Shown: piece by piece, positions 12,554-14,013 of the stretch
How the letters are laid out: each line of letters opens with the position of its first letter
Position numbering within the stretch: position 1 is the first letter of the stretch
DNA from: Sphingopyxis flava
GTDB taxonomy: Bacteria; Pseudomonadota; Alphaproteobacteria; Sphingomonadales; Sphingomonadaceae
DNA: 64,000 bases
Direction: 5' to 3'
Assembly (NCBI RefSeq): GCF_900168005.1
Contig: NZ_FUYP01000010.1
Location: 62,001-126,000 of the forward strand
Position numbers and translations under genes: made by a program
The notes under the pieces: model-generated
Databases searched by the model: none
What the model saw: only the letters and a program-made list of their open reading frames with translations
What the model was told of the DNA's origin: nothing

Positions 12554-12982
12554 ATGGTTCTCGTTCCGATCACACGCAGCATCGCCATTGACAGCGATGA
12601 GCTTGACGAAAGCTTCGCGCGTTCAGGCGGCGCGGGAGGCCAGCATGTCAACACGACCGATAGCGCGGTCATGCTCCGCTTCGACGTGGTCAACTCCCCT
12701 ACCCTGCCCGAGGCCGTGAAGACACGACTTGCCGCCCTGGCGGGGTCGAGGCTGACCAAGGACGGGGTTCTGATCCTTCGCAGCGAAGGGAGCCGATCAC
12801 AGGCTCTCAACAGGCAGGAAGTGCGCGAGCGACTCTTCGCCCTGATACGCGAGGCGACCTTCGTCCCCAAAAAGCGCAAACCAACCAAGCCGAGCGCGTC
12901 GTCGAAGAGGCAGCGCGTCGAGAGCAAGCAGCGTCGGGGCGCGATCAAGGCGGGGCGCGGGCGGGTGCGCGGGACCGACTGA
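12554..12982 (+). CDS. arfB: Alternative ribosome-rescue factor / peptidyl-tRNA hydrolase ArfB
   Basis: 142 residues, the usual ArfB (YaeJ) length. The catalytic GGQ is at residues 28-30 in SGGAGGQHVNTTDSA, followed by the RF-1 domain and a basic C-terminal tail (KKRKPTKPSASSKRQR) that enters the empty mRNA channel. It hydrolyses peptidyl-tRNA on stalled ribosomes. The ATG at 12554 is chosen over the in-frame 12368 because family members begin shortly before the domain. A degenerate SRAP gene starts 12 bp downstream. Confidence 0.92.
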   Translation: MVLVPITRSIAIDSDELDESFARSGGAGGQHVNTTDSAVMLRFDVVNSPTLPEAVKTRLAALAGSRLTKDGVLILRSEGSRSQALNRQEVRERLFALIREATFVPKKRKPTKPSASSKRQRVESKQRRGAIKAGRGRVRGTD

Positions 12983-12994
12983 AGCGCACCGCGG

Positions 12995-13591
12995 GTGACC
13001 CGCCTCTACCGCCTCGATGCGCCTGCCAGCGCGATCGCCGCCGCCTTCGGCATCGAGGCGGGCGATGATCCCTGGACCGGTGATTATGTCGCCCCCGGCC
13101 GCCCGGCGCCGGTGATCGTCGGCGACGGCCGCACCGGATCGCGCCGCTTTCTGCGTCCGCGGCTCTGGGGCGTCGCGCCGCCGCCCATGGGCGCGCACCC
13201 CGTTACCACGGTCCGCAACCTTCAAAGCCCTTTCTGGATCGGCACGCTGCGGCATCCCGAACTGCGCTGCCTCGTGCCCGCGACCGCCTTTGCCCTGTGG
13301 TCGGGTCCTGCGGGCGCTAAGCGTCAGCGCTGGTTTTCGCTCGCATCGCGCCCCGTCTTCGCCTTTGCCGCGATCCAGCGGCAGATCGAGGATTGGCCGG
13401 GGTTTGCCATTCTGACGACCGATCCGAACCGGCTGGTCGCGCATTACCATGAGGGCGCGATGCCGCTCATCCTCCATGCCGAGGATCACGATCGCTGGCT
13501 GACCGCCGACTGGCGCGACGCAGCGTCGCTGGTTGCACCCTATCCCGGCCAGTCGATGCGGGTCGGCGATCGGCCGCCGCCCGCGCTTTAA
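12995..13591 (+). CDS. Degenerate SRAP (SOS-response-associated peptidase) family protein
   Basis: 198 residues with the fold landmarks of the SRAP/YedK/HMCES family: TVRNLQSPFW, RCLVPATAFALW, ILTTDPNRLVAHYHEGAMPLIL. Active members need Cys2, which forms a thiazolidine with abasic sites after Met removal, plus a Glu in the RCLVPxxxFxE region and a His. Here the GTG start is followed by Thr-Arg-Leu-Tyr, so Cys2 is absent, and the Glu position is Leu101; a His (150 or 152) is retained. It may be a non-catalytic DNA binder. Its stop overlaps the convergent EVE gene by 4 bp. Confidence 0.8.
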   Translation: MTRLYRLDAPASAIAAAFGIEAGDDPWTGDYVAPGRPAPVIVGDGRTGSRRFLRPRLWGVAPPPMGAHPVTTVRNLQSPFWIGTLRHPELRCLVPATAFALWSGPAGAKRQRWFSLASRPVFAFAAIQRQIEDWPGFAILTTDPNRLVAHYHEGAMPLILHAEDHDRWLTADWRDAASLVAPYPGQSMRVGDRPPPAL

Positions 13592-14013
13592 GCCCCGGGC
13601 TTTTCCGACTTTTTGAGGATATGCTTCCACTCCTCCGCTGTCACCCGCCCGACCGACAGGCGCGAGAGGCGGATGAGGTCCATTCCCGCAAGCTTGGGGT
13701 CGGCCTTGATCGCCGCGAGCGTCACCGGATGGGCAAGCGGCCGCACGGGCTCGACGCGTACGACGACCCAGGGCGAGCCTTCCTCGGCGGTCGGGTCGGG
13801 AAAGGCGGACTCGGTGATCTTCATGATCCCGACGCATTCCTTGCCGATATTGCTGTGATAGAAAAGCGCCTCGTCGCCGACTTTCATCGCCTGCATGTTG
13901 AGTTTCGCCGTGTGGTTGCGCACACCGTCCCAGATGCCGCTGCCATCCTGGACGAGCGTGTCCCAGCTGTAGACGTCGGGTTCGGATTTCATCAGCCAAT
14001 ATTGCTTTGCCAT
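13588..14013 (-). CDS. EVE domain-containing protein
   Basis: 141 residues covering a complete EVE (PUA-like) domain: YWLMKSEPDVYSWDTL at the N-terminus, WDGVRNHTAKLNMQAMKVGD and FYHSNIGKECVGIMKI. Such proteins bind modified bases in RNA or DNA and are widespread single-domain proteins in Proteobacteria. It ends convergently, overlapping the SRAP-like gene by 4 bp. Function beyond modified-base recognition is unknown. Confidence 0.92.
   Translation of the reverse strand: MAKQYWLMKSEPDVYSWDTLVQDGSGIWDGVRNHTAKLNMQAMKVGDEALFYHSNIGKECVGIMKITESAFPDPTAEEGSPWVVVRVEPVRPLAHPVTLAAIKADPKLAGMDLIRLSRLSVGRVTAEEWKHILKKSEKPGA

Follow-up and report, generated by a model that had tools for sequence, protein, structure and literature searches.

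What remains for a SRAP domain to do when the residue that joins it to abasic DNA is gone? PMC3765255 describes the cysteine at position 2 of SRAP proteins as absolutely conserved, its place in the domain being always that of the second residue. The gene at 12995-13591 of the window (the whole 64-kb stretch of Sphingopyxis flava DNA analysed) encodes a member of the family with threonine in its place. Natural Cys2-less SRAPs are separation-of-function variants through which one can ask whether crosslinking is the domain's only useful activity, and they could show whether AP lyase activity of the kind reported for YedK when Cys2 is mutated or blocked was ever naturally selected. Among the open-access literature matches listed, a set with most subscription papers outside its scope, we recognised no description of such proteins. 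The gene, its key codons and its neighbours are as follows.

12554-12982, + strand: ArfB-like gene, RF-1 domain; stop 12 bases ahead of the SRAP start
12995-13591, + strand: SRAP-fold protein without equivalents of Cys2, Asn75 and Glu105; 198 aa, GTG start
12998-13000, + strand: Thr2 codon (Cys2 in canonical SRAP), from alignment with YedK
13208-13210, + strand: Thr72 codon (YedK Asn75), from alignment with YedK
13214-13216, + strand: Arg74 codon (YedK Arg77); Arg in 129/129 clade sequences
13295-13297, + strand: Leu101 codon (YedK Glu105), from alignment with YedK
13298-13300, + strand: Trp102 codon (YedK Trp106), retained, from alignment with YedK
13448-13450, + strand: His152 codon (YedK His160), retained here, gone from most orthologues
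13588-14013, - strand: EVE-domain protein gene, convergent; 4-base overlap with the SRAP stop

The window protein keeps the SRAP fold and lacks the crosslinking residues

An earlier note, made from the DNA letters alone, had assigned this protein to the SRAP family and described an intact frame with its fold motifs in place, Thr at residue 2 and Leu at the catalytic Glu. These assignments hold. Pfam SRAP (PF02586) matches the 198-residue product with 63.7 bits (E 2.3e-17, cut-off 27.1, profile positions 5-204 of 214), while NCBIfam gives no match for it. Alignment with the canonical E. coli YedK shows that Cys2, Asn75 and Glu105 are gone and that His160, Arg77, Trp106 and Pro40 (Pro34 of the window protein) are retained; the loss of Asn75, here Thr72, adds to the earlier description. 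Leu101 lies within RCLVPATAFALW, where canonical members carry Glu (YedK E105). Arg77, Trp106 and Pro40 (YedK numbering) are residues that we take to contact DNA in the ssDNA groove. Net charge is low, +4 for the window protein and a median of +2 for its Sphingopyxis orthologues. Judged by the residues that define a catalytic SRAP, of which it has His160 and lacks Cys2, Asn75 and Glu105, the protein is a SRAP homologue predicted not to be a catalytic one, and it is kept in most Sphingopyxis searched.

An AlphaFold2 model built on 47 sequences (pLDDT 93.1, pTM 0.90) has the SRAP fold. Foldseek gave 21 matches at E 0.001 or better, every one of them a SRAP structure, and so is each of the 15 entries listed by VIA-align (Z 20.0-23.4), which include 2f20 (23.4), 2aeg (23.3), the YedK-ssDNA complex 6nuh (21.4) and the HMCES-DNA complex 6oeb (20.6), over 187-191 residues. 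E. coli YedK and human HMCES have the same fold as the window protein (Z ~21) at ~20% identity and share with it the equivalents of Arg77, Trp106 and His160, whereas the window protein lacks those of Cys2, Asn75 and Glu105. A modelled fold held in common with SRAP does not itself show DNA binding; a term search of PMC8041192 found no DNA-binding mutants.

The reading that we prefer, and whose chances we judge to be about even, is that the window protein has lost its crosslinking centre and kept its fold. The thiazolidine-forming centre of Cys2, Asn75 and Glu105 would have been dismantled while the fold, Arg77, Trp106 and Pro40 were kept, and because the thiazolidine crosslink needs Cys2, the protein should no longer crosslink abasic sites. 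It would bind reversibly, and with no covalent bond, to ssDNA or to ssDNA/dsDNA junctions that carry abasic or other lesions, in the role of a reader or shield that is not under SOS control. Since the fold and Arg77 stay conserved, non-covalent binding of DNA or of its lesions would be the likeliest remaining function. The sequence GTTC-N7-GTTC, which we assume to be the LexA-type box pattern, has no exact match in the 64-kb window (1.8 expected by chance), and SOS control of the window gene was set aside as unsupported.

The Cys2-less state is shared across Sphingopyxis

The missing cysteine might have reflected a sequencing error or a wrong start in this genome, and the earlier note had itself named an upstream start supplying Cys2, or Cys2 in close orthologues, as signs of a mistake. 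This explanation is refuted, and we leave it practically no probability. An in-frame TGA at 12980-12982, 12 bases upstream, leaves just four codons (S A P R) ahead of the GTG at 12995, so no alternative start can supply the residue. Searching the window protein against 99 genomes (its own included, 60 of them Sphingopyxis, the genus of its closest named relatives) gave matches at E 1.7e-69 or better in 53 of the 60; all 53 loci were examined, and because 52 of them share the Cys2-less state, an error is excluded. The one exception, locus L043 of genome G015, also has Asn75, Glu105 and His160. All 52 Cys2-less loci have frames of 190-204 codons, each ended by a stop.

The same search found no such orthologue in seven of the 60 genus genomes (G002, G009, G017, G018, G037, G042 and G056), three of which are less than 90% complete, and G355 and G456, also of this genus, had no match at E 1e-30 when searched with a profile of orthologues. 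At L030, L072, L077 and L080 there is no ATG, GTG or TTG where the Cys2-less SRAP should begin; these genes may use an odd initiation codon, or their starts may be misplaced.

Six PF02586 matches were found in the window's own genome, four of them with Cys2 (L001, L002, L003 and L005), the other two being the window gene and a different Cys2-less SRAP divergent from L003. Even so, the Cys2-less SRAP seems able to do without a canonical partner, because in some genomes it stands alone: among the matches listed, it is the sole PF02586 match at E 1e-5 in six of the 60 genus genomes (G007, G045, G046, G048, G050 and G058), of which G007 and G050 are single-contig. G055 too has a single PF02586 match, which lies beyond the rows listed. 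An obligate partnership with canonical SRAP was therefore dropped as unsupported.

Selection on the window-type gene

Pairwise comparison of 63 Sphingopyxis window-type sequences gives medians of 0.28 for dN/dS and 0.74 for dS; for the neighbouring genes the median dN/dS is 0.12 (arfB, 54 sequences) and 0.16 (EVE, 53 sequences). Within one set of 12 genomes, the window type has a dN/dS of 0.32, the canonical MCNDY SRAP 0.11 and the Cys2-less divergent neighbour of the latter 0.13. The window-type SRAP is under purifying selection, and this constraint is weaker than that on canonical SRAP, arfB and EVE, as seen from a dN/dS of ~0.3 against 0.11 for canonical SRAP in the same genomes. The proposal in the earlier note that selection may maintain a form predicted to be non-catalytic gains support from these values, well below 1, together with the 52 intact same-genus frames and the fold model.

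Within Sphingopyxis, substitutions cluster at the former catalytic site, for positions 105, 160 and 75 are highly variable (4th, 10th and 21st of 184 columns by variability) and Arg77 and Trp106 show no variation. The pattern is less sharp in the other groups of the clade, described below: in the Sphingomonas-like one, position 75 comes 72nd and position 105 comes 88th among 183 columns, and position 160 is uniform both there and in the Sphingobium-like group.

With a dN/dS about three times that of canonical SRAP, slow decay could account for part of the signal, and the whole gene might be viewed as a slowly decaying, functionless relic. The variable active-site columns are in keeping with this, as are a non-ATG start codon in 10 of the 53 same-genus loci and the absence of the gene from some genomes of the genus; yet a dN/dS of 0.28-0.32, stop-ended frames of 190-204 codons persisting in 52 loci at a median dS of 0.74, and the many non-catalytic columns that are invariant across 30 orthologues make a relic highly unlikely.

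Gene neighbourhood

The window gene does lie between genes for ArfB and an EVE protein, as first described, and this context was seen only in Sphingopyxis. Of the 53 same-genus loci, 44 have arfB upstream in the same orientation as the SRAP gene and 43 have EVE downstream in the opposite orientation; both neighbours are present together in 43. Of the ten exceptions, L022 has ArfB only, L043 is the locus with Cys2, and the other eight are loci of MTRLYRL type (L072-L077, L080 and L081), in which neither ArfB nor EVE was found. Just 12 bases (12979-12995) separate the arfB stop from the SRAP start in the window, and no ribosome-binding site is evident there, an arrangement suggesting that the two genes may be translationally coupled.

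Such proximity invites another reading, in which the domain is a repurposed scaffold that acts in protein-protein contacts or on RNA, has no connection with abasic DNA and possibly works together with ArfB. The recurrence of arfB at 44 of 53 loci and the 12-base gap are what it would lead one to expect, and conserved residues such as D25, W27 and R86, typical of the wider clade to which the protein belongs and non-catalytic, also speak for it. Against it, no ArfB or EVE neighbour was found at 96 loci that lie outside the Cys2-less set of Sphingopyxis (flanks up to 3 kb, some ended by the contig) or at the eight MTRLYRL-type loci, and Arg77 never varies, nor does Trp106 to any extent if Novosphingobium is set apart. 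We regard the scaffold role as possible and on the whole unlikely. Found only in Sphingopyxis, the ArfB/EVE neighbours carry little functional information, and a functional operon with them was rejected as unsupported beyond that genus. Clustering of neighbours at 81 loci was crude (six-frame ORFs were pooled, and the largest of the 25 largest clusters mix SRAP-antisense with other frames), so a shared neighbour is neither shown nor excluded by it.

Catalytic residues in the wider Sphingomonadaceae clade

A profile of 30 orthologues, compared with 397 genomes of the family, matched 143 at E 1e-30 or better. The clade loci examined comprised 30 from this profile search (two already in the set), 40 further loci and 79 named loci. 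Together they delineate a clade within Sphingomonadaceae that is marked by LYRLD and WIGxLR motifs and includes fully canonical members. These canonical 'MCNLYRLD...WIGTLRH' SRAPs, of which that of Chakrabartia godavariana (L182; AlphaFold2 pLDDT 88.0 for this Cys2-bearing sister) is an example, have clade and motifs in common with the window protein and are 55-62% identical to it where named loci are full-length; unlike it, they have Cys2, Asn75 and Glu105 (10/10), with His160 in 8/10.

Of the distinct sequences in the clade, 10 carry Cys2 and 119 lack it, the latter falling in four tree-defined groups; L058 and L108, both Cys2-less, were placed in no group, and a record named Novosphingobium indicum falls in the Sphingomonas-like group. 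As the groups were formed on Cys2 status, presence or absence of Cys2 in each is so by construction, which does not apply to the other sites. Their retention is as follows.

Cys2-bearing, 10 sequences: Glu105 10/10, His160 8/10
Sphingopyxis, 63 sequences: Glu105 10/63, His160 9/63
Sphingobium-like, 9 sequences: Glu105 0/9, His160 0/9 (position 160 uniformly Asn)
Sphingomonas-like, 28 sequences: Glu105 23/28, His160 0/28 (position 160 uniformly Gly, 28/28)
Novosphingobium-like, 19 sequences: Glu105 1/19, His160 0/19, Trp106 0/19

Asn75 is kept in 10/10 Cys2-bearing and lost from 119/119 Cys2-less sequences, Arg77 is present in 129/129, and Trp106 is near-invariant in the clade outside Novosphingobium. 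Loss of Cys2 is thus accompanied by that of Asn75 and of most His160, while Arg77 stays, and the fold too in one modelled Cys2-less member. The Novosphingobium-like proteins (L183-L201, L203 and L204) have a median length of 182 aa, with the Glu105/Trp106 stretch altered or lost; these versions are a further step of divergence.

Could the N-terminal amine have taken over?

Thr at residue 2 permits removal of the initial Met, and Asn, Gln, His or Ile there is expected to retain it; an N-terminal Pro is the type of nucleophile used by Fpg/Nei lyases. The window protein might accordingly be thought a Schiff-base AP lyase, in which the Thr amine, exposed by Met removal, attacks the AP aldehyde and beta-elimination cleaves the strand. 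Its model is YedK, for which PMC9436759 reports that Glu105 comes second to Cys2 in catalytic importance, that H160A slows the reaction by a factor of ten or more and that N75A has only a modest effect. According to the same text, YedK without the Cys2 thiol forms no DPC and cleaves AP-DNA via its N-terminal amine, the lyase of C2A/E105Q being 25-fold slower than that of C2A and that of C2A/H160Q 2.5-fold slower (PMC9436759). Loss of Cys2 alone would not make a SRAP inert, then, since YedK without it is an AP lyase. The window protein is a natural counterpart of the C2A mutant (PDB 8d2m) in having no thiol at residue 2, but C2A keeps the Glu105 needed for efficient lyase activity, where the window protein has Leu; given the slowing by E105Q, it should be a poor lyase.

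Comparison across the groups points the same way for Sphingopyxis. A residue 2 that permits Met removal is found in 44/63 Sphingopyxis sequences and in 8/9 Sphingobium-like, 28/28 Sphingomonas-like and 16/19 Novosphingobium-like ones, which would suit a lyase, yet the other 19/63 Sphingopyxis sequences carry Asn, Gln, His or Ile and are expected to retain Met, so that the genus as a whole does not conserve amine chemistry. Nor is a permissive residue 2 associated with Glu105 among the Sphingopyxis sequences (8/44 vs 2/19, Fisher p 0.71). For the window protein we hold the lyase explanation to be distinctly improbable. It appears to fit the Sphingomonas-like branch better: residue 2 is Thr or Pro in 28/28 (Pro in 5/28) and Glu105 is kept in 23/28, as a natural AP lyase would need, yet position 160 is Gly in 28/28, a site at which C2A/H160Q was 2.5-fold slower. 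By analogy with the YedK C2A set-up, to which it comes close, this branch may be a natural AP lyase. Natural Met-Pro SRAP starts with Glu105 kept were seen at L055, L088, L095, L187 (Sphingomonas sp. IC081) and L189.

Cys2 appears to have been lost repeatedly

Beyond the single gene first described, the wider point is that Cys2 loss recurs within one SRAP clade. Trees were built without the four active-site columns: two quick ones of 110 and 95 rows and a careful one of 45. Before the 110-row tree we dropped L004 and L039, which duplicate the window gene, together with YedK, the fragments L202 and L165, L103 (whose N-terminus could not be placed), L108 and rows at least 86% identical to a kept row; the 95-row tree further omitted L058, L005, L124, L001 and L084, of which three had been marked as long branches, and of the canonical rows it kept just ten outgroups and the nine clade members. 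On each of the three trees the Cys2 state changes four times. Bootstrapping of the 45-row tree gave 4-5 changes, with a single origin in 0/200 bootstrap trees, and forcing the Cys2-less rows into one clade was rejected (p-AU 0.0032), an outcome that depends on the hand-choice of those 45 rows to span the groups and on the omission of the active-site columns. The starred branches of the 45-row tree, taken alone, force just two changes. We read the changes as losses because a joint regain of Cys2, Asn75 and Glu105 would be implausible, and about four parallel losses of Cys2 appear to have occurred in this one Sphingomonadaceae clade.

Other Cys2-less SRAPs beside canonical ones

Combining these branches, one may suggest, tentatively and with more doubt than confidence, that the crosslinker has been repurposed repeatedly: the Thr2/Pro2 branch with Glu105 would be a turnover AP lyase whose nucleophile is the N-terminal amine, as in Fpg/Nei, and the branches without Glu105, that of the window protein among them, would be non-covalent readers of abasic sites. 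If so, Cys2-less SRAPs would form a general class of partners or regulators, a view drawn from three further Cys2-less kinds that sit beside canonical SRAPs with LexA-type boxes. These SOS-paired kinds in Sphingopyxis (the L006 type and two others) adjoin a canonical SRAP with such a box nearby, whereas the window type is solo.

The first kind is represented in the window's own genome (C118, L003:1462-2649), where a canonical MCNDY SRAP and a divergent Cys2-less SRAP of PTPFDP type (the L006 type) share a short intergenic region. At 12/12 loci of this type (L205-L216, L205 being the own-genome pair) a LexA-type box lies 5 bases before the Cys2-less start. The two other kinds are tandem, and together have a box in 11/12 loci, ~0.25-0.6 kb upstream of the Cys2-less gene; as the loci are related, box counts do not represent independent events. 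At L217-L222, L226 and L227, short Cys2-less SRAPs, 7/8 of which begin MDIE, lie just upstream of canonical MCNLVTL/MCNQITL SRAPs, with a box farther upstream in 7/8. At L223, L224, L225 and L228, Cys2-less SRAPs beginning MSRLY or MSRLH precede canonical MCNLYTERxSAAEVAAHFGV SRAPs, with a box upstream in 4/4; the two genes are 0.8 kb apart in L224 and adjacent in the other three.
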